23,092 bases of DNA, taken from the IMG/VR virus record IMGVR_UViG_3300043499_000160, positions 1 through 23,092 of that record, one strand, 5' to 3'. The translations under genes and the position numbers were made by a program. Shown here piece after piece: positions 3,584 through 23,092 of this stretch. Each line of letters begins with the position of its first letter. Within the stretch, counting starts at the first letter, position 1. Below the pieces are notes generated by a model. It worked only from the letters and a program-made list of their open reading frames with translations. It had not been told where the DNA came from and did no database searches. Source of the DNA: a virus.

Positions 3584-3610
3584 GTTGCCTTTTGCAACTC
3601 CAATTTGGAG
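3584..3610. promoter_or_regulatory. Two adjacent dyad symmetries in the divergent gap; candidate operator
   Basis: GTTGC-CTTTT-GCAAC (3584-3598) is immediately followed by, and shares one base with, CTCCAA-T-TTGGAG (3598-3610). Both are perfect inverted repeats. The second includes the GGAG ribosome binding site (3607-3610) of the rightward gene that starts at 3618. A protein bound here, or an RNA hairpin, could affect both divergent units. No clear -35/-10 pair could be picked out in either direction, so promoter positions are not given. Confidence 0.4.
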
Positions 3611-3617
3611 GTAAAAC

Positions 3618-3962
3618 GTGGCGTTAGAAGATGATGTGAAAGCACTTACTACAGTTATCGCCGCTTTAGCAGCTAAATTGCCTGTGGGCGCGGCTACAAC
3701 TGCTCCGTCCACCTCTACGGCAGCAGCCACTCGCGGTCCTGGGCGGCCGAGAAAAGTGACTTTGGACGAGGTTAAGGTCGTTGCAAAACGGTTGATGGAC
3801 GAGCGGGGCGGCCCGGTTGCCCGTAAATTGATCGCAACGCACGTTGGGACCGAGAACGGCAAGCTGGCGGACCTGGACGAAAGCAAGTACGCGAATTTTA
3901 TCGCCGAGGTCGATGTACTCCTTGCTCAGCAGCCGGCCGAACACGCGGAATCGGATCTGTAG
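3618..3962 (+). CDS. Small AT-hook-like phage protein, 114 aa
   Basis: The start is GTG at 3618 with a strong GGAGG site six bases upstream. Residues about 1-20 are helical and hydrophobic/Ala-rich, about 21-38 are a low-complexity Ala/Thr/Ser linker, then RGPGRPRK (about 39-46) matches the GRP core of an AT-hook, a minor-groove DNA-binding motif. The C-terminal half (about 47-110) is a small helical module of a kind often seen at the ends of small phage DNA-metabolism proteins (pattern VxxxAKxLxDxxG...KLADLDxSKYxxFI). It is the first gene of the long rightward operon, ahead of the DUF2800 nuclease. A DNA-binding accessory role is reasonable, but one AT-hook match is weak evidence and the specific function is unknown. 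Confidence 0.75.
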   Translation: MALEDDVKALTTVIAALAAKLPVGAATTAPSTSTAAATRGPGRPRKVTLDEVKVVAKRLMDERGGPVARKLIATHVGTENGKLADLDESKYANFIAEVDVLLAQQPAEHAESDL

Positions 3963-3974
3963 CCGGTGGGCGGA

Positions 3975-5153
3975 ATGGCTATTTCATCGTTTCGACCTAG
4001 TTATTCCGCCACCTCTCTGTTCTGTGCCGGTTCACTCCTCCCTTCCCTCACCGCCGTGGATAAAGCGGGTTACGAGGCGGCTGAGGGCACGGTCTTCCAC
4101 GAGTTGATTGCTGAATGGCAAACACGCGGGCGGCCCGATCACTGGTTGGGGCAAACCAGGGAGGTTGATGGCTATACCGTCGAGATAGTCGAGGAAATGT
4201 TTACCCATGCAGAGGAATGCTTGACCCGTGCTAACGAGATCCACGGCGATCGGTATGTTGAGACACGGGTTGACCTAACCGCGATCACACCCATCCCCGG
4301 TCAAGGTGGTACGTGTGATCTGGCGTTCTGCCGACAGGGGATACTCGATATAACCGACTGGAAGTACGGTAAAGGTGTGCAGGTTTTCGCGTACAAGAAC
4401 ACGCAGTTGATGTTGTACGCTCTCGGTTTCTACTTCGAATTTAACCAGTTCTACGACTTCCAGCTAATCCGGATGCGGATCGCGCAGCCGCGTTTTAATC
4501 ACTGGGATCTCTGGGAGGTCCAAGTCGAAGAGCTACTGGAATTCGCCGACTGGGCGCGTGAGCGGTGGTCACTCGCATGGCAACCCGACTCTCCCCGTAC
4601 CCCAAGCCCGAAGGCTTGTCAGTGGTGCAAGGTGCGACTGACATGCCCTGCATTGGAGGTAGCGCGTCAAGCCCTGGTCGATCTCACTTTTGAGGTACTC
4701 GATGTGGACCCACGCCAACCTGTGCAGCCTGTTGCACCTGTAATCCCGCCCGCGATCGAGTTGACCACTACCCAGCTTGCCCAGATCTACCGATACCGCA
4801 AGCTCATGGAAAGTTGGTTTAGCGACATCGGCGACGAGTTGATAGCGCGTGGGCTAAGCGGAGAAGACCTGGGCGGTCAGTGGAAGGTCGTTGAGGGGCG
4901 ACCGGGGCGTCGTCGTTGGACTGACGAGGAGCAGGCTGTCCAGGCTTTCGATCGGATTGGGGTAGACCCATACGAAGTGAAACTCCGTTCGCCGGCTCAG
5001 GTTGAAAAGCTGGTTCGAGCGGCCGGGGTACGTGACCCCACACCATACGTGAACCTATTCACTGATCGTACTCCCGGTAAGCCGGCTCTCGTGCCGATCG
5101 GTGACGCTCGTGCCGATCTCCAGTCAGCCGTGGAGGACAGTTTTAATGGCTAG
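3975..5153 (+). CDS. DUF2800 family Cas4/RecB-like PD-(D/E)XK nuclease with Fe-S cysteines
   Basis: This is a phage exonuclease-type protein of the DUF2800/Cas4-RecB group. Counting from the ATG at 3975 (392 aa), the nuclease core shows H42 (GTVFHELI), D115 (GTCDLAF), D128 and K130 (ITDWKYGKG) and the QxxxY motif Q144-Y148 (TQLMLY). One N-terminal cysteine, C17, and the C-terminal set C215-x2-C218-x5-C224 (ACQWCKVRLTC) match the four-cysteine iron-sulfur arrangement of Cas4 and AddB nucleases. The ATG was preferred over an in-frame GTG at 3966 because family members begin near a (S/F)xPSxxxxxxxCxxS segment. The last 130 residues hold family-specific helices and an Arg-rich patch. It overlaps the next gene by eight bases. 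It likely processes DNA ends for replication or recombination with the DUF2815 partner downstream. Confidence 0.9.
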   Translation: MAISSFRPSYSATSLFCAGSLLPSLTAVDKAGYEAAEGTVFHELIAEWQTRGRPDHWLGQTREVDGYTVEIVEEMFTHAEECLTRANEIHGDRYVETRVDLTAITPIPGQGGTCDLAFCRQGILDITDWKYGKGVQVFAYKNTQLMLYALGFYFEFNQFYDFQLIRMRIAQPRFNHWDLWEVQVEELLEFADWARERWSLAWQPDSPRTPSPKACQWCKVRLTCPALEVARQALVDLTFEVLDVDPRQPVQPVAPVIPPAIELTTTQLAQIYRYRKLMESWFSDIGDELIARGLSGEDLGGQWKVVEGRPGRRRWTDEEQAVQAFDRIGVDPYEVKLRSPAQVEKLVRAAGVRDPTPYVNLFTDRTPGKPALVPIGDARADLQSAVEDSFNG

Positions 5154-5331
5154 GGTCTTCGCCACTCGGAATGAAGCGGAGTTGTACCGCTATACATTGC
5201 CACTGGCGGATCGGTGGGAGACGATACACTTTACCAGCAACATGGGGAGAGAGGGATACGTGATACGGCGTAAACCAAAGATGTGGCGTGAACCGGTGAA
5301 AGAGGTGGGCGATGTCAGACGTGATTGTTGA
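5146..5331 (+). CDS. Small hypothetical protein, 61 aa
   Basis: The ATG at 5146 lies inside the end of the nuclease gene and has GGAGG at 5132-5136, nine bases upstream. The protein is basic (starts MARVFATRNEAELYRY, with RRKPKMW near residue 40) and has no recognisable domain or membrane segment. Its stop overlaps the start of the DUF2815 gene by 20 bases, so translation is probably coupled. A reading frame of the same phase extends further upstream, but inside the nuclease gene. I cannot assign a function. Confidence 0.65.
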   Translation: MARVFATRNEAELYRYTLPLADRWETIHFTSNMGREGYVIRRKPKMWREPVKEVGDVRRDC

Positions 5332-5947
5332 GCGTAAGGTGTTACGAGAGGAAAAGTACGTTGTCACTTATAGTGACCAGAGCATCATGATTAAAGAGGT
5401 GCGGCTGTCGTATCCGCATCTCGACAAGCCTTGGGCAATGGGCGGGGATAAACCGAAGTACAGCGCATATGGGTTGATGCCTAAAACCCCGGCGTACGCG
5501 AAGTCGAAGGCTTTGATTGATGCTGCGATCCAGAAGATTGCGACCGATAAGCAGAGTCCGAATTTGCCGGCTACGCAGCGGTTTTTTCGTGACGGCGATG
5601 AGACGGACAAACGAAGCTTTAAGGGGCATTGGAGTATCAGTGCCAGCGAGGACACTCGTCCCGGTCTTCGCGGACGTGGTGTAGACCCGATCACAGGTCG
5701 GGCAAGGATGATCGCGCCGGAAGAGATAACAGAGGTGTTTTACCCCGGTTGTTGGGTGAACTTACTCGTAAAACCCTGGTGGCAATCCAATACATACGGC
5801 AAGCGGGTTAACGCCAACCTCGTCGCGGTACAGTTTGTGCGCGATGATCAGAAGATCGTTGGCGAGGGTCGTATCGGGGACGATGCGATCGATGATTCCT
5901 TTGGCGTCTTGCCCGAGGATGAGAGCGGCTTCGAGGATGACCTGTAA
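5312..5947 (+). CDS. DUF2815 single-stranded DNA-binding protein
   Basis: The 211-aa protein matches the DUF2815 family, regarded as OB-fold-type phage ssDNA-binding proteins. Seen in the sequence are the family-like segments RLSYPHLDKPW (about 31-41), the conserved KxFKGHWxIxASEDTRPG region (about 101-120), a PGCWVNLLVKPWW strand (about 144-156), the NANLVAVQFVRDD segment, and a strongly acidic C-terminal tail of about 25 residues, the typical partner-docking tail of phage SSBs. The ATG has AGAGGTGGG just ahead. It sits between the Cas4-like nuclease and the DNA polymerase, the usual order DUF2800-DUF2815-polymerase in many phages. It should coat ssDNA at the fork and recruit the polymerase or helicase. 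Confidence 0.9.
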   Translation: MSDVIVERKVLREEKYVVTYSDQSIMIKEVRLSYPHLDKPWAMGGDKPKYSAYGLMPKTPAYAKSKALIDAAIQKIATDKQSPNLPATQRFFRDGDETDKRSFKGHWSISASEDTRPGLRGRGVDPITGRARMIAPEEITEVFYPGCWVNLLVKPWWQSNTYGKRVNANLVAVQFVRDDQKIVGEGRIGDDAIDDSFGVLPEDESGFEDDL

Positions 5948-5951
5948 GTAG

Positions 5952-5995
5952 GATGGAGCAGGGATAGTTCGGGGGAGCGAATCCCTGCTCCCATC
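5952..5995 (+). promoter_or_regulatory. Strong hairpin after the SSB gene
   Basis: GGAGCAGGGAT (5955-5965) and ATCCCTGCTCC (5981-5991) form a perfect 11-bp stem with a 15-base loop; three more pairs (5952-5954 with 5993-5995) extend it past a single bulged C. No T-run follows, so it does not look like a standard intrinsic terminator. It may be an RNA processing or stability element, a translational control structure, or a protein-binding site. Confidence 0.55.
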
Positions 5996-6006
5996 GGGGC
6001 CGTGTG

Positions 6007-6036
6007 GCAACCGAGCGGTCCTACAACATCGGTTGC
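6007..6036 (+). promoter_or_regulatory. Second hairpin before the DNA polymerase gene
   Basis: GCAACCGA (6007-6014) pairs perfectly with TCGGTTGC (6029-6036) around a 14-base loop. It begins 12 bases after the first hairpin and ends 20 bases before the polymerase ATG, leaving the GGTGG ribosome binding site (about 6047-6051) outside the stem. It could tune polymerase expression; no U-tract follows. Confidence 0.5.
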
Positions 6037-6055
6037 ACTTCCTTACGGTGGATAG

Positions 6056-8122
6056 ATGCTGCACCTAGATTACGAAACAGCCTGTGACCTTGATCTACGA
6101 AAGGTCGGGCTGGACAGGTACAGCGCTGACCCTAGCTGCCGTGTTCATATGGCGGCCTACCGGATAGGTGACGGTCCCCTCGAACACTGGGAAGCGCATC
6201 TTGCTCCTTTTCCGAAACGGCTGAAAGAGGCGTTGTTAGATCCGGAGATCCCGAAGTGGGCGTTTAACGCGCAGTTTGAGCGGGTGATCACTCGTCGCGT
6301 CTTACGGATCGCGACCCCGCATCGCAACTGGCGTTGCACGATGTGCCTTGCCTACATGCAGTCCTTCACCGGGGGGCTTGCCGACATCGGAAAGCAAGTT
6401 GGGTTACCCCCGGACGCCCAGAAGCTGAAGACCGGTTCGGACCTGATCCGGATCTTCTGCATGCCGCAGAGGTTGAGCACCAATTTCACCAGTGAGTGGC
6501 GGAATTGGGTCACCGATCCGCATCTCTGGGAGGAGTTTTGCGAGTACAACAAGCAGGACGTATTGACCGAGGAAGCTATTAAGCGGCGATTGATCCAGTA
6601 CCCGGTTCCCCAGGACGAATGGGATTTCTACGAGCTAGACCAGATCATCAATGATCGTGGCATCCCGTTGGATTGGCTGTTTGTGGACAATGTCATCCGG
6701 CTGTCGGACTACCGGAAGCGGGAACTGCTTGACGAGATGTCGGCGATCACGGGTCTTGGTAACCCAAGTTCCGTTTCACAGTTACTTCCTTGGGTCCGAC
6801 ACCACGGCTACCCTTACCCCAACCTCCAGAAAGAGTTTATCGAGAAGGCGCTTACCCAGCATGGCCATGAGGGCGGAATGCTGACTGATGAGTGCGCTGA
6901 AGTCCTTGGGATGAGGCTGCTGGTCAGTAAGACGAGCATCAGCAAAGCGGATACGGCCCGGAAGATGGCGGGACCGGGTGGTCGGGTACGATTCATGTAC
7001 CAGTTTGCCGGTGCGTCCAGAACTGGCCGATTCGCTGGTCGTCACGTGCAGCCGCAGAACATGATTCGCACCCCGAAGATGTTCGATCCGGAGGACAACT
7101 ACGACAAACTCCAGATGGCGACGGACCTGATCCGCCAGGGCGACTATTCCGAGTTCGAGTTGTTCGTGAACGAGCCGATGCTGGCCTTCACCGGGGCGAT
7201 GCGCTCGATGTTCCGCGCACCCGAGGGTTACCAGTTGCTTGTTTGTGACTATTCATCGGTGGAGTCGGCCGGTCTGGGTTGGGTGTCACAGTGCCCTCGC
7301 CTCCTCAACGTCTTCCGTGATGGGCGTGACCCGTACAAGGATTTCGGCACCCTCTTCTTCGAAAAACCGTATGACCAGATCACGCGAGCGGAACGCAACA
7401 TCTGCAAACCACCCACGCTGGGGTGTGGCTACAGGCTGTCGGCCGGCACGGTGACAGAGGGCACCAAGACCGGGTTACTCCGGTACGCCGAGGGTATGGG
7501 GATTGAGATGAGCGAGGAGCAGGCCGAACGGGCTGTCTCGGTCTTCCGCTCCGGTTATCCCGAGATCCCGCAGTTCTGGTACGGCTGCGAGGACGCCATA
7601 AGGCAGGTTATGCAGACGCAGCGTCCATTCAACCTTGGCTACGTCCAGTTCGATTACCGTAAACCCTACCTGATGATCCGCCTGCCGAGTGGGCGGCACA
7701 TCTACTACTACAAGCCGCAACTGCGGATGAAGGAGATCAAGTTCAAACGGAAGCGTGGTTCCGTGGGTTGGACGGGCGCGGTTGACGAATGGGAAGTGAT
7801 CTGGCGGCGCGTCTTCAGCTACATGGGCCGCAAGCAGGGGACTACGAAGTGGGAGTTGGTCGATGCCCACGGTGGGGTGACGACGGAGAACATCGTTCAG
7901 GCACTAACCAGGGACATCTTGAAGGTGGGTTTGCGGCGATTGCATGAAGCCGGTTACAAGGTTGTCGGTCACTCGCATGACGAAGCAATCGCCATCGCGC
8001 CGATTGGTGACAATTACCATACCTTGGAACGTATGCGGGAATTGATGAGTGCTCCGATTTCGTGGGCACCGGGCTTTCCGCTCAATGCGACTGCGTGGCG
8101 TGGCGCATTTTATCGCAAATGA
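6056..8122 (+). CDS. Family A DNA polymerase with 3'-5' exonuclease domain
   Basis: This 688-aa protein is a T7/PolI-type replicative polymerase without a 5' nuclease domain. The proofreading exonuclease shows Exo I D5/E7 (LDYET), Exo II around N71-F74 (NAQFE), and Exo III around Y164-D168 (YNKQDVL). The polymerase shows the GRFAGR..QPQN region (about 324-335), motif A with catalytic D398 (VCDYSSVES), motif B with R447, K451 and Y459 (RNICKPPTLGCGY), and motif C with H641-D642-E643 (GHSHDEAI). All key catalytic residues are present, so the enzyme should be active. Length is normal for phage family A polymerases. The start ATG has GGTGG upstream and follows two hairpins. It is the core enzyme of the rightward replication block. 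Confidence 0.96.
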   Translation: MLHLDYETACDLDLRKVGLDRYSADPSCRVHMAAYRIGDGPLEHWEAHLAPFPKRLKEALLDPEIPKWAFNAQFERVITRRVLRIATPHRNWRCTMCLAYMQSFTGGLADIGKQVGLPPDAQKLKTGSDLIRIFCMPQRLSTNFTSEWRNWVTDPHLWEEFCEYNKQDVLTEEAIKRRLIQYPVPQDEWDFYELDQIINDRGIPLDWLFVDNVIRLSDYRKRELLDEMSAITGLGNPSSVSQLLPWVRHHGYPYPNLQKEFIEKALTQHGHEGGMLTDECAEVLGMRLLVSKTSISKADTARKMAGPGGRVRFMYQFAGASRTGRFAGRHVQPQNMIRTPKMFDPEDNYDKLQMATDLIRQGDYSEFELFVNEPMLAFTGAMRSMFRAPEGYQLLVCDYSSVESAGLGWVSQCPRLLNVFRDGRDPYKDFGTLFFEKPYDQITRAERNICKPPTLGCGYRLSAGTVTEGTKTGLLRYAEGMGIEMSEEQAERAVSVFRSGYPEIPQFWYGCEDAIRQVMQTQRPFNLGYVQFDYRKPYLMIRLPSGRHIYYYKPQLRMKEIKFKRKRGSVGWTGAVDEWEVIWRRVFSYMGRKQGTTKWELVDAHGGVTTENIVQALTRDILKVGLRRLHEAGYKVVGHSHDEAIAIAPIGDNYHTLERMRELMSAPISWAPGFPLNATAWRGAFYRK

Positions 8123-8133
8123 CGAGGGAAACC

Positions 8134-8325
8134 ATGATTACAGGTGACGCTGGGAGACGGTTGGAAGCTGCGCTGATCTACGGTTTCAGCGAGATGCCTG
8201 ACATCGCGACACTGTCGTTGCGGCAATTACAGATTATCGAGGACATCGCTCGCGCATTGGGGGAGCGCGACAAGATCATCGCTAAACTCGAAGCGGAGTT
8301 GCGCAATGCGGCAACCACGGATTAG
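8134..8325 (+). CDS. Small hypothetical protein, 63 aa
   Basis: The ATG at 8134 has GAGGGA five bases upstream; another in-frame ATG at 8119 overlaps the polymerase stop as ATGA, so the start could be five codons earlier. The protein is mostly helical, with a heptad-like charged C-terminal half (IIEDIARALGERDKIIAKLE) that may form a short coiled coil. No family is recognised. It overlaps the next gene by 20 bases. Confidence 0.65.
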   Translation: MITGDAGRRLEAALIYGFSEMPDIATLSLRQLQIIEDIARALGERDKIIAKLEAELRNAATTD

Positions 8326-8578
8326 TGGGTTCACGCTGTTCGAGCACCCCGGCAAGGGGTGGCAGATGTCTGTGCGGCGTAAAGATGAAACCGGATGGGA
8401 CGTGAAGATCATCCCCGCGGAACAGGCCGCGATGGTGCTCTCGATGCTGGAAGCTAGCGGTCACCCGGACGGCCCCTGGAAGGTGTCGCAGGGCAATCTC
8501 CAAGAGGAGATCTGGTACTTGACCGTGGCGGTTCGCCAGTTGACCGGAGCACTGAATAATATGGAGGAGGTAAAATGA
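8306..8578 (+). CDS. Hypothetical phage protein, 90 aa
   Basis: The ATG has GGAG seven bases upstream, inside the end of the preceding gene. The N-terminal half looks like a small beta-rich fold (FTLFEHPGKGWQMSVRRKD, then GWDVKIIP), followed by a helix (AEQAAMVLSMLEA) and a second C-terminal helix. It has no known motif. Its stop overlaps the next start as ATGA, so it is part of the same operon. Confidence 0.7.
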   Translation: MRQPRISGFTLFEHPGKGWQMSVRRKDETGWDVKIIPAEQAAMVLSMLEASGHPDGPWKVSQGNLQEEIWYLTVAVRQLTGALNNMEEVK

Positions 8579-9369
8579 CGCCCATCGCTCATTACCTCGC
8601 TAAACAGGTTTCATTGCCTAGACGTGAACGTACTATAGTTGACCCTGCACTATTGGATTTGGTCGAAGATATTCATTGTTTTGAGGTAACGGAGATACAA
8701 GAACTTGTGATGGATTTAGTAGAAGACGCTGAAACTACTAGTAGGATCGATACTAAACGTTTGTTTCTTCCCGCGCCAAGGACTTGGTTGGAGTGGGAAG
8801 CAAATCTCGGAGTCGATTCAGAATATCCGGAGTTAAGTAACCTGAAGAGGATGGCGGTTCTTTTAACCGAAGATGGTGAAAATATTTACTGTAAGTCAGT
8901 GTTTTATAGATCTCCGACTCAGATTAATTACGCCGAAGACCCCCGGATGAACTTTCGCAAGGATGAATTTGTTACCGCTGATCACATTTCCAAGGCGTTG
9001 ATTTATGCTGAACTCGCTTGTATCAACCATCCGAAGATAATCGGTAGGCGGCAACACATGCCGCACCGTGGGCTGGAGAAAAGACTTAATCAAACATTTG
9101 GTGTGGGCAAGTTCCCTCTCCACGCGTGGACGGAGATCAAGCTAGAGGTAACTCCAACGCTCGACGCCCGTCGCGATCTGTCGATCGAGGCACACTATAC
9201 CGGGAAACGCGCTCTGCACTTCTGCCGCGCCCACCTACGCTTGTGGAACGGAAAGTTGATTTTCGTATCGGCTCACTGGCGAGGTGATGGAGCGGTTGGG
9301 ATTAAGCGGTCAAGGTATAAAGTAGTTCAAGGGAAAGGTGCAAGCTTGAACAATATGGTAGGTGTGTGA
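8575..9369 (+). CDS. Conserved phage protein of unknown function, 264 aa
   Basis: The protein begins at an ATGA overlap with GGAGG upstream. The N-terminal 130 residues are acidic and unrecognised. The C-terminal 70 residues contain KRALHFCRAHLRLW, then SAHWRGD and GIKRSRYKV; this resembles a C-terminal signature I recall from phage hypothetical proteins (pattern (H/R)xxRGHxxxY...G..W.PAHxRG), which has no established function. The conserved His, Cys and Arg might form a binding or catalytic site, but that is only a suggestion. Base composition is uneven: about 8640-8950 is AT-rich compared with flanking genes while about 9060-9300 is GC-rich. It lies between the polymerase and methyltransferase, in a stretch of accessory genes. 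Confidence 0.75.
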   Translation: MTPIAHYLAKQVSLPRRERTIVDPALLDLVEDIHCFEVTEIQELVMDLVEDAETTSRIDTKRLFLPAPRTWLEWEANLGVDSEYPELSNLKRMAVLLTEDGENIYCKSVFYRSPTQINYAEDPRMNFRKDEFVTADHISKALIYAELACINHPKIIGRRQHMPHRGLEKRLNQTFGVGKFPLHAWTEIKLEVTPTLDARRDLSIEAHYTGKRALHFCRAHLRLWNGKLIFVSAHWRGDGAVGIKRSRYKVVQGKGASLNNMVGV

Positions 9370-9563
9370 TGAAGGAGAATCGTAGTCGGATTGAGCGAAA
9401 AGTCATCAGAGAGTTGCAGATCTTATTTGATAAATATTTTGATACTGATAGGGAAGTAGCAGGGGAAATCATGTGGGAGTTAATTCTTGAATACACGCAA
9501 AAATATGGGTGGATAATCGATGAATCGAATCAAATTGTTAAAGGTAAAATGAGTGCTTTTTAA
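9369..9563 (+). CDS. Small hypothetical protein, 64 aa
   Basis: The ATG overlaps the upstream stop as TGATG and has GGTAGG about seven bases upstream; a GTG codon directly before it could add one residue. The protein is a charged helical sequence (KVIRELQILFDKYF, then EIMWELILEYTQKY) ending in a basic tail. It is AT-rich compared with the genes that follow. No family is recognised. It overlaps the methyltransferase start by 11 bases. Confidence 0.65.
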   Translation: MKENRSRIERKVIRELQILFDKYFDTDREVAGEIMWELILEYTQKYGWIIDESNQIVKGKMSAF

Positions 9564-10140
9564 CGGGCTGCCGTTGGGCGTCTACGGGGCGATCCTCGCA
9601 GATCCCCCGTGGTCGTTCCGTATCTACAGTGGCAACGATACGACACCGCACCGTACCGCCGCCGAGCCGTACCCGGTGATGTCTATCGAGGACATCGCGG
9701 TTTTGCCCGTGGCCGATCTGGCGAGGCGCGATTGTGCCCTTTTCCTGTGGGTGGTCGATCCGCTGCTGGATGTGGGTATCGAGGTCGGTAAGGGTTGGGG
9801 GTTCCGATACAAGACCCGTGCCTTTGAATGGGATAAGGGCACGATCGGGATGGGCTATTGGACCCGGAAGGAGGGCGAATCCTGTCTGCTCTTCACCAGG
9901 GGATCGCCACCCCGATTGGACAAGGGCGTTAGGCAGTTCATTCGCGAACCGCGTAGGCAGCACAGCCGCAAGCCGGATGAAGTGTACCGGCGGATCGAAC
10001 GGCTAGTAGCGGGGCCATACGTCGAGTTGTTCGCCACACAGTATTGGGCTGGTTGGGACGGCTGGGGGCGAGATTACCCGCAGTCCGATTTGTCGAGCGC
10101 GCTCCAGGGACTGGCTAGGCGGATAGAGGGATTATGGTGA
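9553..10140 (+). CDS. MT-A70 family adenine N6-methyltransferase
   Basis: This 195-aa protein carries the DPPW catalytic motif at residues 17-20 (ILADPPWSF) and the MT-A70 pattern that follows: YPVMSIEDIAVLPV, ALFLWVVDPLL, GFRYKTRAFEWDKG, and the C-terminal REPRRQHSRKPDEVYRRIE plus YVELFATQ signature. It should transfer a methyl group from S-adenosylmethionine to the N6 of adenine in DNA. The GTG start at 9553 is supported by AAGG eight bases upstream and by the overlap with the previous gene. GC content rises sharply here relative to the preceding gene. In phages such enzymes are usually linked with protection from host restriction or with regulation; the target sequence cannot be read from the protein. 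The gene overlaps the VRR-NUC gene. Confidence 0.92.
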   Translation: MLFNGLPLGVYGAILADPPWSFRIYSGNDTTPHRTAAEPYPVMSIEDIAVLPVADLARRDCALFLWVVDPLLDVGIEVGKGWGFRYKTRAFEWDKGTIGMGYWTRKEGESCLLFTRGSPPRLDKGVRQFIREPRRQHSRKPDEVYRRIERLVAGPYVELFATQYWAGWDGWGRDYPQSDLSSALQGLARRIEGLW

Positions 10141-10415
10141 ACCGCAGTCAGCTTGAGAGTGACATCGAACGCCGGCATCGCCAGGAAGCGGTTATGGCTG
10201 GTTGGTTCGTGGAGAAGATTGAGCGCACCACACGAAACGGGTTTCCCGATCGATTTTACGCGAAGGATGGTCGGGTAGTCTTGTTCGAGTGGAAGCGGCC
10301 CGGTCAGCGTCTCACCCCACAACAGTTACTTCGTCACGATGAACTGCGGGCAGCCGGGGTTGAGGTTCATACGGTGTACTCGATCGATGAAGCTAACCAA
10401 ATCCTTGAGATATGA
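10134..10415 (+). CDS. VRR-NUC domain nuclease
   Basis: The 93-aa protein is a single VRR-NUC (PD-(D/E)XK) domain. The catalytic set is visible as D39 (GFPDRF), E52 and K54 (LFEWKRPG), with a conserved Gln at 63/64 (LTPQQLLRH) and the family ending GVEVHTVYSIDEA. The ATG has GAGGG four bases upstream and overlaps the methyltransferase stop; its own stop overlaps the helicase start as ATGA. Stand-alone VRR-NUC proteins are common in phage replication modules next to an SNF2-type helicase, where they are thought to cut branched or structured DNA. That role is inherited from family knowledge, not shown here. Confidence 0.92.
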   Translation: MVNRSQLESDIERRHRQEAVMAGWFVEKIERTTRNGFPDRFYAKDGRVVLFEWKRPGQRLTPQQLLRHDELRAAGVEVHTVYSIDEANQILEI

Positions 10416-11839
10416 CGTACCTAGAGGACGCTTTCGCCCAAGTGCGTTATACCGAGGGTGACCTACGGCCGGAACAGCGTGAGGCGATCGAGTTCGTCAA
10501 GGTCACGCCATTCAGTGCTCTGTACCTCGATGTCGGCACCGGTAAAACCGTTATCATCCTGTCCCTGATCGATTGGCTGTGGCTGCACGGCTACTACGGT
10601 AAGGTGTTGATCATCGCGCCGATCCGAGTGGCGACTCGCGTCTGGCCGTTCGAGCCAGGGCAGTGGTCGCACCTCGCGTATATGAGCACCACCGTCATCC
10701 GGATCGAGGATGATGACCCCAGGCTGAAGGGTCGCGGTTCTGCCCGGACCGCCGTGAAACACCAGCTACGTGAAGCGCTGTTGGACAGTTCTGACCAGAT
10801 CCACATCATCAATCAGGAAGCGGTCGATTGGCTTGTAGAGGTTTGCGCGAAGCGGAAGTCGTGGCCGTACCGGGTGGTGATATTTGACGAGTCTAGCCGG
10901 CTGCGTGACCACCGGAGCGTGACGTTTAGAGCGCTTCACCGGGTGCTGCCATACATCAAACGGTTTCATCAATTGACGGCTACACCGGCATCACAGACTT
11001 ACATGCACCTGTTCAGTCAAATCTACCTGCTGGACAAGGGTGAACGGTTCGGTAGGCGCATCACCCCGTTTCGGGAACGGTACTTTACGTATAACCACTG
11101 GGCCAGATCATGGAAGATCCGCGAAGGGGCGGCCCAGGAGATCGAGCGGAAGATCGCTGACATCTGTCTGGTGAAGCGCCGGGAGCGTGACTTCCAGATC
11201 AACGTTCGCCGGGTTCACCTAGCACCGCAACAGATGGCCGACTATTACCAGTTCGAGCGGGATCTGGTGCTCGACCTGGGGGACAAGGTTATTGACGGGG
11301 TTAACGGTGCTGTTTTGTGCGCGAAGCTGCTCCAGTACGCCAGCGGTGCCCTCTATGATGAGATGCGAGTCGTTCACGCGATCCACGATGAGAAGATCGA
11401 GGAGTTGAAGTCGATCGTGGACGAGACGATCGACCAGCCTTTGATGGTTGCCTACTGGTTCAAACACACGTTAGCTCGATTGAAAAAGGCTTTTCCGAAT
11501 GCGGTAGTGATGGACCGCGAAGGGAAGATGGAGGCTGAGTGGAATAGGCGAAAACATAAGATGATGCTGGTGCATCCGCAGAGTGTTGGGCATGGGATGA
11601 ACCTGCAATGGGGTGGTCATCATCTGGTTATCTTCGATCTGTTCTACTCATTGGAGCTATTCACGCAGTTGATTGGCCGGCTGGATCGACCAGGGCAGAC
11701 GAATACTGTGATGGTGCACCTGTTATCGGTTGCCCGTAGTCTCGATGAGGTAGTAGCATTCAACTTACAGCGACTTCGCAACGCTGAAGAATCGATGTTT
11801 CAGCGATTGCAGCAAATTCGGGGGAAACTACATGGCTGA
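10412..11839 (+). CDS. SNF2-type superfamily 2 DNA helicase/ATPase
   Basis: The 475-aa protein has the SF2 motifs in order: Walker A LDVGTGKT at 39-46, motif Ia-like IIAPIRV about 68-73, motif II FDESSRL with D159/E160, motif III TATP at 189-192, and motif VI QLIGRLDRPGQ at 419-429 with its arginine fingers. Motif II is DESS, the form often seen in phage SNF2 helicases, rather than DEAH. Length fits the compact phage type, with no extra N-terminal or chromatin-type domains. It is coupled to the VRR-NUC gene by an ATGA overlap and overlaps the RNR gene by eight bases. It probably remodels or unwinds DNA during replication or recombination. Confidence 0.94.
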   Translation: MTYLEDAFAQVRYTEGDLRPEQREAIEFVKVTPFSALYLDVGTGKTVIILSLIDWLWLHGYYGKVLIIAPIRVATRVWPFEPGQWSHLAYMSTTVIRIEDDDPRLKGRGSARTAVKHQLREALLDSSDQIHIINQEAVDWLVEVCAKRKSWPYRVVIFDESSRLRDHRSVTFRALHRVLPYIKRFHQLTATPASQTYMHLFSQIYLLDKGERFGRRITPFRERYFTYNHWARSWKIREGAAQEIERKIADICLVKRRERDFQINVRRVHLAPQQMADYYQFERDLVLDLGDKVIDGVNGAVLCAKLLQYASGALYDEMRVVHAIHDEKIEELKSIVDETIDQPLMVAYWFKHTLARLKKAFPNAVVMDREGKMEAEWNRRKHKMMLVHPQSVGHGMNLQWGGHHLVIFDLFYSLELFTQLIGRLDRPGQTNTVMVHLLSVARSLDEVVAFNLQRLRNAEESMFQRLQQIRGKLHG

Positions 11840-16666: not shown

Positions 16667-16784
16667 TACGGGTAACGCCGAGTATTATCGCGAGAAGGTG
16701 CAGATGCTCCAGGCCGCCTATAACGCTTGCCTGTCCGGTAGGGGCGCGGCGTTGACCACTCCAATTAACTTCATTTTCCCGTGA
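16533..16784 (+). CDS. gpW-like head-tail joining protein
   Basis: The 83-aa protein resembles lambda gpW: an N-terminal helix (CAAIKDELDKARATYERLIA), a beta hairpin region with MDSDGSRIEYSTGN, and a second helix (EYYREKVQMLQAAYNAC). In lambda, gpW fills the portal after DNA packaging and enables tail joining. The ATG at 16533 has AGGAG seven bases upstream; a GTG directly before it is the alternative. It lies between TerL and the portal, the lambda gene order A-W-B, which supports the call. Its stop overlaps the portal start as TGATG. Confidence 0.8.
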   Translation: MIVQTTADCAAIKDELDKARATYERLIAPGVRSVMDSDGSRIEYSTGNAEYYREKVQMLQAAYNACLSGRGAALTTPINFIFP

Positions 16785-18583
16785 TGCCTGATATCGCGCT
16801 CTCACGACCCGAGACGGCATCGATTGGCGGTGCCCTGGAGGGTGCCGATCGGACCACTCGCGAGACGATGTTGTGGAATGCCGATTACCGGCATCCCGAC
16901 CAGATCATCAATCAGGTCAAAGACGAAGCTGATTTCAGGGGCCGGGATGTCGTTACCAATGATGGCTACTCCCAGGGTATCGTCGATATCAATCGGGACA
17001 ACATCGTTGGGTCGCAGTTTCGGCTGAATGCGCAGCCTAACTGGACTGTCCTACAGCAACTTTACTCGTCACGGTTCGATGAGGTTTGGGCGGAGGACTT
17101 TCAGCTTGCGGCTGAAGAGCAATTCAACATCATGGCCGATTCGGCCGCCTGTTACCTCGATGCGGCCAGGAAGCACACGTTTACCTCGTTGGTGCGGTTG
17201 GCTGTAGCGGGGTGGGTGTATACCGGTGAGGTGTTGGCGACGGTCGAATGGATACGTGAGATCGGGCGACCGTTTAGCACGGCGATTCAGATGGTCGCGC
17301 CCACCCGTTTATCGAACCCCGATGGGCGAGAGGATGACCAGTTTTTACGGCGGGGGATTCGCAGAGATATCCGAGGGCGGGCAACCGGTTACTTCATCCG
17401 CATCGGTTACCCGACACAATGGTATCTCGGCACCGATACATTCCGGTGGGCGTTTGTCCCGGTCGAAAAGCCGTGGGGTCGCCGTCAGGTCATCCACATC
17501 ATAGATGCGATTCAGCCCGATCAGTCACGAGGGATATCAAAGCTCGTGGCGGTGTTGAAAGACATCAAGATGACCAAGAAGTTCGAGGAGATCGTGTTGC
17601 AGAATGCGGTCATCAATGCGAGCTACGCTGCTACAATTGAAAGTGAGTTACCGAAGGAAGTTATCGCGGCGGCAATGGGTGGCGGCGGGTTGGACCCGAA
17701 CGCCAGCTTCCTGAATGTCATCGGCAGTTACCTGAGTAGCCTTAATCAGTACCTGTCGAGCGCTAATGGGGTCGCGGTGGACGGGGCGAAGATGCCGCAT
17801 TTGTTCCCCGGCACGAAATTGAACATGCAGACCCTGGGGACACCGGGGGGCGTTGGAACCGACTTTGAGGTAAGCCTTTTGCGGCATATTGCGGCTGGTC
17901 TGGGTATCTCCTACGAGGAGTTTGCCCGCGATTTTAGTCGAACGAATTACTCGTCAGCCCGTGCGGCCATGATGACGACGTGGAAGCACATGATGGGTAC
18001 GAAGAGATTCGTTGCTGATCGGTTCGCCGATGAGATCTACGCCTTGTGGCTCGAAGAGGATATGAATGCCGGCAACATGCCATTGCCTCGTGGCTTTACC
18101 AGTGAGATCTGGTATCGCCCCTGGGGTAAGGAATGCCTTACCGCATGCGATTGGATTGGGGCTGGACGTGGGCAGATTGACGAGTTGAAGGAGACTCAGG
18201 CTGCCTTGTTACGGGTGAAGGGCGGCATGTCCACCCGTGAATTTGAGATCGCTAAGCAAGGCGGGGATTGGAGGAAGGTGTTTCGCCAGCTTAACCGTGA
18301 GCAGAAGCTTGCGGCTGATCTTGAGTTGGACTTTGGGCAAGTCGAGCAACAAGGCGGCGTTCAGCGGGATGCCTCGACCTCCGGTCAGACTGTAATGGAT
18401 GCACCGCTGCTGGAGACTGAGGACGAGGGAGACGATGCGGCCCCGAGTTATTCACTTGATGAACTGATGACAGCAGTCCGCAGTGCGACTCCCGCTCCCG
18501 ACAATCGAGTCGAACGTACTGTTGTTACCAAATGGGATGATCGCGGACGCATTCTTGAGTACGAACGTCATCGGATCGATTGA
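16784..18583 (+). CDS. Portal protein, lambda family
   Basis: The 599-aa protein matches the lambda-type portal family. Seen are the N-terminal arm (TTRETMLWNADYRHPDQII), the RDNIVGSQFRLNAQPNW segment near residue 75, the central body with the PTRLSNPDG and HIIDAIQPDQSRGIS segments, and the conserved GISYEEFARDFSRTNYSSARAA stretch near residue 375, a portal hallmark. The C-terminal end is acidic and low in complexity. It forms the ring through which DNA enters the head. Start at ATG 16784 overlaps the gpW stop; a GTG directly before is the alternative. No capsid protease domain is fused at the C-terminus. Confidence 0.94.
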   Translation: MPDIALSRPETASIGGALEGADRTTRETMLWNADYRHPDQIINQVKDEADFRGRDVVTNDGYSQGIVDINRDNIVGSQFRLNAQPNWTVLQQLYSSRFDEVWAEDFQLAAEEQFNIMADSAACYLDAARKHTFTSLVRLAVAGWVYTGEVLATVEWIREIGRPFSTAIQMVAPTRLSNPDGREDDQFLRRGIRRDIRGRATGYFIRIGYPTQWYLGTDTFRWAFVPVEKPWGRRQVIHIIDAIQPDQSRGISKLVAVLKDIKMTKKFEEIVLQNAVINASYAATIESELPKEVIAAAMGGGGLDPNASFLNVIGSYLSSLNQYLSSANGVAVDGAKMPHLFPGTKLNMQTLGTPGGVGTDFEVSLLRHIAAGLGISYEEFARDFSRTNYSSARAAMMTTWKHMMGTKRFVADRFADEIYALWLEEDMNAGNMPLPRGFTSEIWYRPWGKECLTACDWIGAGRGQIDELKETQAALLRVKGGMSTREFEIAKQGGDWRKVFRQLNREQKLAADLELDFGQVEQQGGVQRDASTSGQTVMDAPLLETEDEGDDAAPSYSLDELMTAVRSATPAPDNRVERTVVTKWDDRGRILEYERHRID

Positions 18584-18996
18584 TGCCAAGCTTGATCTAC
18601 AACTCGGCTCTTACCGACGAAGCGACGGGCGCGATCGACTACGACAGCGACGCTTTTCGATGCATGCTGGTGACGGGCTATGCCCCAGACCAGCAAACTC
18701 ATCGCCACCGCAGTGATGTGACAGGCGAGGTGGTCGGGAACGGCTACACCGCCGATGGCACTGATGCCGTTGTTTCGGTTGCCGAGGACACCGTCAACAA
18801 TCGCACTGATATCACTCTTGGTCCCGTGTCTTGGTCGGCGGCGACAATCGCGGCAACGGGAGCGGTGTATTACAAGGCGAGGGGTGGCGTGTCTACTGCC
18901 GACGAGTTAATCGCGTACATCGATTTCGGTGGCGAGGTGTCTTCGACTAGCGGTCTGTTCAGCCTCTCGGCATCGACAATTCGCAAGCAGAACTAG
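18583..18996 (+). CDS. Conserved phage structural-region protein, 137 aa
   Basis: The start overlaps the portal stop as TGATG. The sequence fits a widespread but unnamed phage family that I recall with the pattern NSALxDxATGAIDxDxDxFxxxLxT, then SDVTxEVxGxGYTAxG, then an AVxYKxRGG and ELIAxIDFGxxxSSxxGxF ending. The fold is probably mostly beta. It lacks a signal peptide. Family members tend to lie near head, neck or tail genes; whether this is a decoration, head-completion or tail-associated protein is not settled. It precedes the fibre-like gene by 23 bases. Confidence 0.8.
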   Translation: MPSLIYNSALTDEATGAIDYDSDAFRCMLVTGYAPDQQTHRHRSDVTGEVVGNGYTADGTDAVVSVAEDTVNNRTDITLGPVSWSAATIAATGAVYYKARGGVSTADELIAYIDFGGEVSSTSGLFSLSASTIRKQN

Positions 18997-19019
18997 AGGC
19001 TCGACGGGGGAGTTTTAGC

Positions 19020-22000
19020 GTGAACAACGGCTATAACCTTGCCCGCGTCTCCACTATGACCACTGGTCCCGGCACTATCACGCTTGGGACGGCAGCGCTT
19101 GGATATCTTTCTTTTGCTCAGTCCGGGGTGCCGGATGGTGCGGTGGTGTCTTACGGCATCGCCGATGGCATCAACAGCGAAGCGGGGTGGGGCGTCTATA
19201 GCGCTACCGGACCGACCCTAACCCGCAATGTGTACCGCTCGACCGGCGCCGGTAACAACACGCCGATCGCGCTCTCGGGTTCCGCCCAAGTGTTTATCTG
19301 CCCGCTCTCCGAGGATTTGGCAACGCTGTTGCCATTGACTGGCGGCGCGCTGAGCGGCGGTTTGAGCTTCGGTTCTGCGGTTGCCAACAGCCCAACCGAT
19401 CTATCTAGGCATGTTGCGTTATTTTCTAATAATTATGGGTTCAGTATCACCGCCAGTAGACAGAACTACGTTGTAACCGGCGGCAGCCATGAGTTTGTAA
19501 TTGATGGAAGTGACATAGCGTCAATTAATGCGGATGGTTTGCACGCTTATCGCGCCGGCATAAATACAGCGGGTCTTCCTTCTCAAGCCGACCTGCACGT
19601 CGGCCGCTCGGCTGCGACGGCGCGCAGCTACCACTCCATGACAGACGCCAGCAACGGCGAGTGGGCGTATATGGGGTCGTGGTCTGGCAACGTCGCCAGA
19701 TACGGCACCGACAAGAACGGCTCGGGGCTCATCCGCAATATTCAGTTCTTGGTCGGTGGCGTCGTTCAGTTGGACTATGGCGTTACCTCCCCCGGCAATT
19801 GGAAGTTCAATAGCCCTATAGCTGTAGGACTTGCGGGTCCGCGCCAAGCGTATTTCACCAGCACCGGCGCTAACAGCGCCTCGATCGTTATTGACAATGC
19901 TGCGGGCGGCAATCAAAGCAATATTACGTTTCAAGACCTGTCGAGCAACAAGTGGCAGATCGGCAAGCAGACCGACAATACTTGGTTCCAACGCGACAGT
20001 GTCAACGCCCTGAACTTTCTTACTGTATCCATCGCCGGAACTTTGGCGTTGGGAGAAAGCTCTCAGATACAAATCCCAAAGACCGGACTTGTTGGGTTTT
20101 CTGGTACTAGCTCGGCCTTTCCAGCCCTAAAGCGCGTCGCCGTCGAACTTCAGGTGCGGCTCGCCGATGATAGCGATTACGCATATATCTCAGCGTTCAC
20201 AGCTGCCCCAGGAACCTCTAATAACCAATTGGCGACTACAGCCTTTGTTCAAACCGCTGTCGTAACAGGTGGGGCGGATTATTTACCTCTAGTTGGCGGC
20301 GCATTAAGTGGACCGTTAATTGTACAGCCATCTAATCCAGTACCTTATCCTCTAGATATTATAGATAGTGGTTCTATTGGTCGTAGTGTATTGCGGATCA
20401 TAAACACCCCTTCCAACTGGGGTCTGTCGTTTGATCCGTTTTGGCCGGGTGTCAGCTTCAATAGTTACCATGATGGTGTGAATAAAAAGGCTTATAGTGA
20501 TGATTACAGCGGAGCCTTTTTCTTAAACCCGGCAACTGGAGCTTTGACATTTTCTAGTGGAAATGCTCCCGGAGCCGGTAATCCTGTTACAGAAACTGAT
20601 CGTTTGACCATTACGGTTACCGGACTTATTGGCATCAACAATCCAAACCCAACAGCCAATTTGACTGTAGGTGGTACCGCTTCGACCGCTCGCACCTACA
20701 ATATTATATCCGATGCCAGCAATAGCGAATGGGCTTACCTGGGAGATTGGGGCAAGACGGCGAACGTCGCCACTTACGGCACCGACCTGAACGGCTCGGG
20801 CGTTGCGCGCGATGTGAATTTTCTCCGTGCGGGCGCAACGGTAATGTCGCTAACCAGCGCGGGCATTACCGCAACAGATGCCCGGGTGGTGGTTTCTGGC
20901 ACGGTAACTGGCAATCATCTTAGTCATGTGAATATTGCTGGAACCTTTGCCAGTTCTACCACAAGCCCGCAAAGCCCATTGCTGATCAATCCTATCGTTA
21001 CGCCAACGGGGTCGTCAGGTAGTATCTACAGCGTCAACATTACGCCTTCGTTGTCTGGATCAACCAGAATAGCTACCCTCTATGGGGTTAACCATAATCC
21101 AAGAATTGAAGCCGGATACACTGGAGCGCAGACCACAACCGCGGCTGGTTTTGTTGCAGGGACCATAGCAAACTTTAGTGCCGGTCCTTCCCCAGCGACT
21201 ACCTATGGTTTCTGGTCGCGCTCGCAAGGCAGCGTTGGCAGCACCGGTGTGTTTACAAATGCCGGCATCCGAATTGACAATATCAACAATGGCGGATCGG
21301 GAACGGTAACTGTTAATAATTATGGTGTTTATGTATTTGTCCCCGGCCCGAATGCGTCGGCTGGCACTTATAACAATAGAGGTATATTCATTACGGGTAA
21401 TGGCGGCGTCGGGACCGGAACCCACGCGAATTATGCGATTTATAGCGACAGTACGGCCCCAATTTATGTCAACGCTAGGGTCGGGATCAAGACAACGACC
21501 CCCTTGGCTGATTTGCATATTGGGCAGGCGGTTGCGACGGCGCGCAGCTACAATATGACGATCACCACCACTAATAGCGAATGGGCGTATCTGGGGGATT
21601 GGTCCGGTAATGTGGTGCGATACGGCACCGACAATAACGGTGTTGGCCTCGCACGCGACGTCAGTATTATGCGGGGCGGCGCCGAGTCTATTCGCATTGG
21701 GCCGAACGGCTATGTAGGTATTAAGAGCCCCGTACCTAGCGTGCTTCTTGATGTTGTCGCACAACTGAACCAATCAGATACTATCCGGCTTACTAATACC
21801 TATGTTAGCGGTCCTGATGTTAGCGTTGGCGCAACAATTGAATGTGTAGGAGTGCGCGGCGACGGCAACAGCACTTTCGATGGTAGGTTCGCTGTCGGCT
21901 TCCGTCGCACTGATGGTAATCCGATAAACAACGAGTATGGAGGGTATCTCGGCACATTTGGGTTTGGCGGGCAATGGGGCACCGACCAGGGCTATGTAGC

Positions 22001-23092
22001 GGCAAAGCATCTATACTCGGCCTCAATCCGGGCGATGATCGAGGGGCCGTTCACTGCCGCCAACTCGATGCCGACTGCCCTGTCGTTCCGTACCGGCGCT
22101 GTTGGCGAGGACATCCGCGCGCCGAACACGTCTTTCGGCACCGAACGGATACGGATCACCAGCGCCGGCAACGTTGGGATCGGTAATTTCCCCACTATCC
22201 CACCGCAAGCTCTACTGCACATCGGCACGGCAGGGGCGACCGCCCGCAGCTATAACACCATGACCGACGCTAGCAACGGCGAATGGGCTTATATGGGAGA
22301 TTGGAGCGGTAACGTCGCGAGGTATGGGACCGATAAGAACGGCACTGGGGCGGCGCGCAATGTCCAGTTCTTGGTTGGTGGCGTTGACCAGCTGAATTAC
22401 GGTGTGTCACTAGCTAATTATTGGACTGCATTGAGCCCGCTTTATATATATGGCTTAGATGCGGCTAGTGGCGCGGCGTTAGTGCTCGGTAATAATGGCG
22501 GATACAACTCCTATATTGGCAGTTCGTTTTTTAACTTTAATACGTATTGGAATGGATCGAGTTATGTATATGGCCCGGGTAGCACCACCCAATGGGGCGG
22601 ACAATATGCGTTTGATCCACCTACTGGAGTTCACAGGTGGAGTATAACCGACGCAGGAGGTGCTACCGGGGCGGCGACTTCGCCTGTTACTGCTTTAGCG
22701 TTGAAGCGTATCGCCGGTGTCTCATTATTAACGATTGGAACCTGGGTCGATTTTACCGCCGCTTTTCCGGCATTGCGGGCCAACAGCAATTCACTGGAAG
22801 TGCGCCTCGCCGATGACAGCAACTACGCGCAGTTACGCGCTTCTACCCTATACGGTGATACGTTGGGTGGTCTCGCTATGGCGTATGCCCATGCTCAGTG
22901 GACGATGAGTTGTGCCGGTACAATCACTTGGGCCGGTTCCCGGTTAAGCTGGACCGTCCGGATTATCTGCATCCCGACATCGCAGCCGCTCGGAAGTTGG
23001 ATCGAGTTCAACCAACCGACGACCGACATCCCTGCCGCTCAGGTTTACGATGGTGTCGCGCGCAGTGTTGCCGGGGGCATATTGCTTAACTC
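19020..23092 (+). CDS. Long repetitive tail-fibre-like protein, 3'-truncated by the window
   Basis: A GTG at 19020, with GGGGGAG seven bases upstream, opens a frame that I translated through to the window edge without a stop: 1357 codons. Residues about 1-100 form a typical phage fibre N-terminal region (NLARVSTMTTGPGTITLGTA, YRSTGAGNNTPI). LPLTGGALSG (about 104-113) and LPLVGGALSG (about 422-431) are linker motifs common in tail fibres, as is NNQLATTAFVQTAV (about 401-414). A roughly 65-aa module (ATARSYxxMTDASNxEWAYxGDWSGN and YGTDxNGxGxARxVxF) occurs four times. FPAL...VRLADDSxYA occurs twice. The last 60 residues look like a compact C-terminal beta domain. It probably contacts the host surface. 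Composition is mosaic, with AT-rich inserts between GC-rich modules. The real C-terminus lies beyond the window. Confidence 0.88.
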   Translation, partial: MNNGYNLARVSTMTTGPGTITLGTAALGYLSFAQSGVPDGAVVSYGIADGINSEAGWGVYSATGPTLTRNVYRSTGAGNNTPIALSGSAQVFICPLSEDLATLLPLTGGALSGGLSFGSAVANSPTDLSRHVALFSNNYGFSITASRQNYVVTGGSHEFVIDGSDIASINADGLHAYRAGINTAGLPSQADLHVGRSAATARSYHSMTDASNGEWAYMGSWSGNVARYGTDKNGSGLIRNIQFLVGGVVQLDYGVTSPGNWKFNSPIAVGLAGPRQAYFTSTGANSASIVIDNAAGGNQSNITFQDLSSNKWQIGKQTDNTWFQRDSVNALNFLTVSIAGTLALGESSQIQIPKTGLVGFSGTSSAFPALKRVAVELQVRLADDSDYAYISAFTAAPGTSNNQLATTAFVQTAVVTGGADYLPLVGGALSGPLIVQPSNPVPYPLDIIDSGSIGRSVLRIINTPSNWGLSFDPFWPGVSFNSYHDGVNKKAYSDDYSGAFFLNPATGALTFSSGNAPGAGNPVTETDRLTITVTGLIGINNPNPTANLTVGGTASTARTYNIISDASNSEWAYLGDWGKTANVATYGTDLNGSGVARDVNFLRAGATVMSLTSAGITATDARVVVSGTVTGNHLSHVNIAGTFASSTTSPQSPLLINPIVTPTGSSGSIYSVNITPSLSGSTRIATLYGVNHNPRIEAGYTGAQTTTAAGFVAGTIANFSAGPSPATTYGFWSRSQGSVGSTGVFTNAGIRIDNINNGGSGTVTVNNYGVYVFVPGPNASAGTYNNRGIFITGNGGVGTGTHANYAIYSDSTAPIYVNARVGIKTTTPLADLHIGQAVATARSYNMTITTTNSEWAYLGDWSGNVVRYGTDNNGVGLARDVSIMRGGAESIRIGPNGYVGIKSPVPSVLLDVVAQLNQSDTIRLTNTYVSGPDVSVGATIECVGVRGDGNSTFDGRFAVGFRRTDGNPINNEYGGYLGTFGFGGQWGTDQGYVAAKHLYSASIRAMIEGPFTAANSMPTALSFRTGAVGEDIRAPNTSFGTERIRITSAGNVGIGNFPTIPPQALLHIGTAGATARSYNTMTDASNGEWAYMGDWSGNVARYGTDKNGTGAARNVQFLVGGVDQLNYGVSLANYWTALSPLYIYGLDAASGAALVLGNNGGYNSYIGSSFFNFNTYWNGSSYVYGPGSTTQWGGQYAFDPPTGVHRWSITDAGGATGAATSPVTALALKRIAGVSLLTIGTWVDFTAAFPALRANSNSLEVRLADDSNYAQLRASTLYGDTLGGLAMAYAHAQWTMSCAGTITWAGSRLSWTVRIICIPTSQPLGSWIEFNQPTTDIPAAQVYDGVARSVAGGILLN
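19587..19781 (+). repeat. Fibre module copy 1 (65 aa)
   Basis: It encodes ADLHVGRSAATARSYHSM followed by TDASNGEWAYMGSWSGNVA and RYGTDKNGSG, ending QFLVGGVVQLDYG. It is closest to copy 4 at the protein level and shares an exact 19-base stretch (19613-19631) with copy 3 (21533-21551). Confidence 0.85.
20118..20183 (+). repeat. FPAL/VRLADDS motif copy 1
   Basis: It encodes FPALKRVAVELQVRLADDSD followed by YA. The same pattern recurs at 22764-22829. Motifs of this type mark the end of shaft segments in many phage fibre proteins. Confidence 0.7.
20655..20852 (+). repeat. Fibre module copy 2 (66 aa)
   Basis: It encodes ANLTVGGTASTARTYNIISD, then ASNSEWAYLGDWGKTANVAT and YGTDLNGSGVARDVNFLRAG. It is the most diverged copy, with one extra residue in the GDWGKTANVA segment compared with GDWSGNVA in the others. 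Confidence 0.82.
21507..21701 (+). repeat. Fibre module copy 3 (65 aa)
   Basis: It encodes ADLHIGQAVATARSYNM, then TNSEWAYLGDWSGNVV and RYGTDNNGVGLARDVSIMRG. It begins 1920 bases after copy 1, a whole number of codons. Confidence 0.85.
22209..22403 (+). repeat. Fibre module copy 4 (65 aa)
   Basis: It encodes ALLHIGTAGATARSYNTM, then TDASNGEWAYMGDWSGNVA and RYGTDKNGTGAARNVQFLVG, ending DQLNYG. It nearly matches copy 1 in protein but differs at many third codon positions, so the duplication is old or under protein-level selection. Confidence 0.85.
22764..22829 (+). repeat. FPAL/VRLADDS motif copy 2
   Basis: It encodes FPALRANSNSLEVRLADDSN followed by YA, matching the earlier motif at 20118-20183, and precedes the putative C-terminal domain. 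Confidence 0.7.

Follow-up and report, generated by a model that had tools for sequence, protein, structure and literature searches.

A modular, Peptidase_S74-ended probable adhesin fibre in an exchangeable slot between the portal and head-protease genes of a Casjensviridae-like phage

The determinants of host range in phages are usually sought in the tail-tip genes. The locus analysed here raises the question of what a very long, repeat-built gene encodes when it lies behind the portal gene, and whether its product may take part in host contact. The window, that is, the whole stretch of DNA analysed, is an entire linear virus contig of 23,092 nucleotides (IMGVR_UViG_3300043499_000160), and the gene occupies its right end together with the following features.

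16781-18583, + strand: portal protein (lambda type), left border of the slot (PF05136, E 7e-78; phrog_21, E 3e-117)
18509-18580, + strand: portal C-terminal tail with the motif TVVTKWDDRGRILEYE, common to other cassette-bearing phages (exploratory)
18580-18996, + strand: p644, a small beta-rich protein and probable fibre adaptor, first gene of the cassette (phrog_644, E 5e-28)
19006-19012, + strand: Shine-Dalgarno-like GGGGGAG preceding the GTG at 19020 (read in the sequence)
19020-23092, + strand: modular fibre gene, first 1,357 of 1,701 codons, continuing in L041:126-1158
22968-23092, + strand: 125 bases matching exactly the start of L041, where the gene is completed (sequence overlap)

The 1,357 codons at 19020-23090 form one open frame, as the sequence-only reading had claimed, and this frame is cut by the contig end. 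It continues in contig L041 (IMGVR_UViG_3300043499_000285, 34,557 bases), where a further module, the fifth and weaker than the others, and a Peptidase_S74 domain at the C-terminus bring the gene to its full size of 1,701 codons (1,701 aa). Downstream of the fibre, L041 continues with a 104-aa gene, a small gene, orf186, the S49 head protease, the capsid protein and the tail genes. From the 125 shared bases we infer that both contigs belong to one genome; their sum is 57.5 kb, and the genome of Burkholderia phage BcepNazgul has 57,455 bases. When the far end of L041 was compared with the window start as a check for a circular molecule, no overlap was found. An assembly break inside the fibre gene with such an overlap is the expected effect of coexisting fibre alleles in the sample.

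The backbone into which the gene is set is Casjensviridae-like, as judged by comparison with BcepNazgul in gene order and in the homology of core proteins. Primase, exonuclease, DNA polymerase A, helicase, terminase and portal follow the BcepNazgul order with roughly 35-55% protein identity, and the order from protease to tail and the genome size are also similar. The two phages differ in two respects. First, BcepNazgul has no cassette between portal and protease. Second, it has no ribonucleotide reductase gene before the terminase, where the window carries one of phage type (PF02867, 11832-13646) between helicase and terminase.

The explanation that we favour, and consider likely as a whole, is that the gene encodes a 1,701-aa, probably trimeric modular adhesin fibre with an S74 end, placed in an exchangeable slot between the portal and head-protease genes. 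The kind of protein is known; the position of its gene is exchangeable and has been little described. Its parts within the window are as follows.

19020-19328, + strand: N-terminal (anchor-like) domain, residues 1-103 (62% identity to the L006/L007 fibres, 56% to that of L069)
19329-19358, + strand: linker LPLTGGALSG (motif position)
19584-19784, + strand: module 1 (HMM i-E 9e-36)
20118-20174, + strand: first FPAL...VRLADDS unit, inside the duplicated unit at residues 186-394
20283-20312, + strand: linker LPLVGGALSG, with TTAF at 20235 (motif position)
20652-20858, + strand: module 2 (HMM i-E 3e-31)
21507-21704, + strand: module 3, counterpart of L021 module 1 (HMM i-E 4e-33)
21849-23092, + strand: start of a DNA block common to the unrelated phage L021 (78-79% identity; extends to L041:1645)
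22206-22406, + strand: module 4, counterpart of L021 module 2 (HMM i-E 6e-37)
22764-22820, + strand: second FPAL...VRLADDS unit, inside the duplicated unit at residues 1060-1276

The four copies of a 65-aa module that had been placed at 19587, 20655, 21507 and 22209 start there indeed, and the module pairs reach Smith-Waterman scores of 178-286 against shuffle maxima of 46-56, at 51-78% amino acid identity. Using a profile HMM of the module, four copies were recovered in the window (residues 189-255, 545-613, 830-895 and 1063-1129; i-E 3e-31 to 6e-37), and the fifth was found past the contig end at residues 1433-1495 (E 5e-22). The paired motifs reported earlier are also present, with LPLxGGALSG at residues 104 and 422 and FPAL/VRLADDS at residues 367/379 and 1249/1261, and the FPAL pair belongs to a larger duplicated unit (residues 186-394 versus 1060-1276; 229 columns, 40.6% identity, E 6e-45). 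The module is not in Pfam, and its fold was not predicted when a single module was modelled by AlphaFold with 14 sequences (pLDDT 51, pTM 0.22). The PDB sequence search gave no match for the fibre and only chance matches for its N-terminal domain, and scans of bacterial genome contigs with the module alignment and a 540-aa fibre alignment found no relative and so pointed to no host.

The view of the product as a modular fibre is supported by the S74 end, by matches to tail-fibre PHROGs (phrog_9942 for the window part; phrog_1980 and others for the L041 end) and by the LPLxGGALSG and TTAF linkers. The C-terminal match to PF13884 (Peptidase_S74), in L041, scores 33.2 bits against a curated cut-off of 22 (E 6e-8). 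The protein resembles endosialidase-type S74 tail fibres in its S74 domain, its coiled-coil-like end, its repeat-built shaft and its LPLxGG/TTAF linkers, but differs from them in being encoded between portal and head protease and in having Cys in place of the usual Ser. The nucleophile position of S74 domains is usually Ser, and because a Cys occupies it here, self-cleavage is not assured. The motif of the domain (L041:859-1035) reads TCDYRIK, as in L021, L042 and L043, and this type may represent a Cys-type S74 sub-family or a non-cleaving one. On the 111 kb contig L043, three fibre genes stand in a row (3591-10699), the first of which ends in the same S74 type.

The exchangeability of the slot can be read from the relatives of the window. 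In the window clade, portal and head protease are separated by p644, by an adhesin cassette that is exchangeable and by a small conserved gene; p644 is kept in all clade loci, always as the first cassette gene. In contrast, 11 relatives outside the clade (L008, L010-L015, L017-L019 and BcepNazgul) are cassette-free, with the protease directly after the portal; in these, no more than a few hundred bases separate the portal match from the start of the protease match. What follows p644 varies: the present fibre and then orf186 in the window; a 666/672-aa collagen-S74 fibre and then orf151 in L006 and L007; and a Gp80-type gene, orf148 and a 1,533-aa adhesin in L003 and L004, with the start of the same adhesin also present in L002 and L005. 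Homology links the orf186 and orf151 products to the last 145 aa of the 1,533-aa adhesin. In the DNA comparison with L003/L004, similarity breaks off at the p644 stop codon and returns at the protease start, which shows the slot content to have been replaced as a block, down to the gene borders, within the window clade. Against the L006 phage, identity is 68-94% for the tail-tip proteins and 63% for the tape measure, whereas it is 57% for p644 and 33% for orf186, and the fibre matches over residues 1-103 only (62%). By these identities, change is more rapid in the slot than at the tail tip. For the 1,533-aa sister adhesin, a PDB sequence search did not confirm a lectin-like domain.

Based on these features, the fibre could work in the following way. 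An N-terminal anchor domain is followed by five 65-aa modules, joined by LPLxGG/TTAF linkers and variable inserts. The fibre would bind a receptor, and the C-terminal Peptidase_S74 chaperone would help it to trimerise and might then be cut off. The slot is framed by p644, the probable adaptor, on the left and by the small orf186-type protein on the right. Since its content is swapped as a block while the tail-tip genes are conserved, the slot would be a second, faster-changing host-contact locus, and it is plausible that the fibre alleles alter host range. The locus suggests that some phages hold the tail tip fairly constant and vary an adhesin encoded behind the portal, where it could be overlooked in annotation.

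Where on the virion such a fibre would sit can be read in two ways. The first reading, an ordinary tail-tip fibre with a gene that was simply relocated to a place beside the portal, comes close to an even chance. Its domain types are those of tail fibres, and p644 has relatives in at least 499 stretches of viral contigs, among the best 80 of which most are not found after a portal and lie in tail-tip-like regions. The AlphaFold model of p644 (pLDDT 68) had nothing significant in Foldseek, and the VIA alignment of this low-confidence model, a hint only, resembles tail baseplate and arm proteins and also neck proteins; the PDB sequence search with p644 gave only chance antibody-type matches. However, the same phage has what looks like a complete, conserved tail-tip block, and the post-portal place recurs in unrelated backbones, a recurrence that a chance move does not predict.

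The second reading is a refinement of our favoured explanation with regard to position, and we hold it tentatively, at somewhat below an even chance. Here the product would be a neck or head fibre, attached via p644 at the portal vertex or capsid and making first contact before the separate tail tip binds. The fibre gene lies inside the head block, while the same phage has a separate tail-tip block. In addition, the adjacency of portal and p644, together with the portal tail motif, recurs beside four portal families, and PF23140 (Gp80) takes its name from a fibre protein of podophage GP4. In phiCbK, gp75 is phrog_644 and gp72 is PF23140/Gp80, and gp76, directly after gp75, was proposed as a candidate head filament by Gill et al. 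2012 (PMC3556154), an assignment that is a proposal only. Head or neck fibres are known in phage 7-7-1 (PMC12796354), A-1(L) (PMC10966104) and RcGTA (PMC7296036), and with the phiCbK link they make a neck or head position credible for the window fibre. On the other side stand the best 80 p644 stretches, which mostly do not adjoin portals, and S-LBS1, whose p644 lies among minor tail genes. Moreover, portal C-termini usually face the head interior.

The likeness to phiCbK gp72-gp76 concerns arrangement: a giant adhesin gene close to the head genes is immediately preceded by a phrog_644 gene, and a Gp80/PF23140 gene stands nearby, as it does in the sister cassettes. The window fibre differs by its S74 end and has no match in the phiCbK region, hence none to gp76, and the sister 1,533-aa adhesin resembles gp76 only in size class and Gly/Ala richness. 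Gp80-type genes, named after fibre I of podophage GP4, precede the adhesin in the sister cassettes and in L021, and the PF23140/Gp80 gene is absent from the window's own cassette, where p644 leads straight into the fibre. A grouping of p644 and Gp80 as one family was tried, and hhalign gave it no support. As the same small gene, p644, precedes both the window fibre and gp76, the phiCbK head-filament assignment becomes testable.

The portal-p644 adjacency was found beside portals of phrog_21 (the window clade and L069), phrog_12 (L057), phrog_146 (L064, L065, L073 and L112) and phrog_156 (L128). For example, L069 has the order portal, p644, a fibre with the same N-terminal domain, a Gly/Ala-rich protein ending near DNDFLL, and protease, and its portal is only 26% identical to that of the window, over part of the length. 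A common terminal motif, TxVTKxDxxGRILE[YF]E, is found in the portals of both the clade and L069; it is carried by 7/7 portals with a cassette and by 0/10 of cassette-free relatives. Among 58 distinct cases, the gene just 5' of p644 ends in a looser form of the motif in 10, and each of these 10 genes is a portal gene or adjoins one. Because inspection of the sequences preceded the definition of the motif, these counts are exploratory. Post-portal cassettes of unrelated phages are closed by Gly/Ala/Ser-rich repeat proteins whose ends are acidic and rich in leucine (e.g. DNDFLL).

L069:7933-9186, L057:4375-5313 and L128:6404-7165: Gly/Ala/Ser-rich cassette-closing proteins

We also propose, as a rather unlikely generalization, that post-portal adhesin islands may be a general arrangement, so far without a name, by which unrelated phages bear at the portal vertex or head a second adhesin that can be exchanged. 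In such islands, portals of different families would share a C-terminal tail motif, and behind them would come p644 as adaptor, an adhesin open to replacement and a Gly/Ala-rich protein with an acidic end, with the portal tail and p644 forming the socket. In a limited open-access literature, no description of the post-portal slot, the p644 frame or the portal tail motif was found. The recurrent order beside four portal families, often with the portal motif, is a concrete candidate for the attachment of a second fibre set.

The sequence-only reading had explained the gene mainly by duplication of its own modules with exchange of AT-rich inserts, which we now regard as improbable, although one part of it stands. 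Modules 1 and 4 with their FPAL units (75-78% amino acid identity) look like an internal duplication, and module numbers and inserts differ among relatives as that reading would have it (five modules here, three in L021, two in L033, one in the others). For the other modules, the comparison with L020-L022 points elsewhere. The portal of these phages is of HK97 type (phrog_12), their terminase belongs to phrog_9, and protease and capsid are fused in one gene; neither the terminase nor the portal of the window has a significant match in them. Their fibre, located a little 3' of the portal and directly after a Gp80-type gene, is 66% identical overall to the window fibre over residues 821-1700 and 74% over residues 818-1357. 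The DNA block shared with L021 covers half of the fibre and two small downstream genes, the first of which is 93% identical as protein. Modules 3, 4 and 5 match L021 modules 1, 2 and 3 in order, and being colinear they would be older than the split from L021. Module 2 is nearest to another phage's module (57%; tree support weak), and module 5 pairs with L021 module 3 in a tree of low support. Block and whole-cassette exchange, as far as these alignments tell, explains more of the difference than module duplication does. Sharing of fibre modules between phages of distant families is already known for Alteromonas phages A5 and V22 (PMC10579305); there it concerns a tail host-recognition module with a separate chaperone, whereas the window fibre is post-portal and has an S74 end.

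The GC evidence for exchanged inserts is weak. The three 60-base counts given earlier are exact, but those stretches were selected, and low-GC stretches are not enriched in the gene (60-base stretches with at most 20 G+C make up 0.7% of the fibre gene versus 1.2% across the whole window). Nothing beyond a moderate difference was found, with modules at 57-63% GC versus 49-56% in the stretches between them (crude p about 0.02).

A wrong joining of the fibre to the portal contig by the assembler, which the contig end inside the fibre gene might suggest, was rejected as scarcely credible, as the independent contigs L002-L007 have p644 and adhesins at the same place, the L006/L007 fibres share a homologous N-terminus with the window fibre, L041 holds the fibre end and then the protease, and L069 shows the same order on another backbone.

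A second contig of the same phage, L053, encodes an 837-aa tail protein (4028-6541) whose N-terminus resembles a bulb-type (GNA-like) lectin, and this protein is conserved in the L006 phage, with 84% identity over the first 214 residues.
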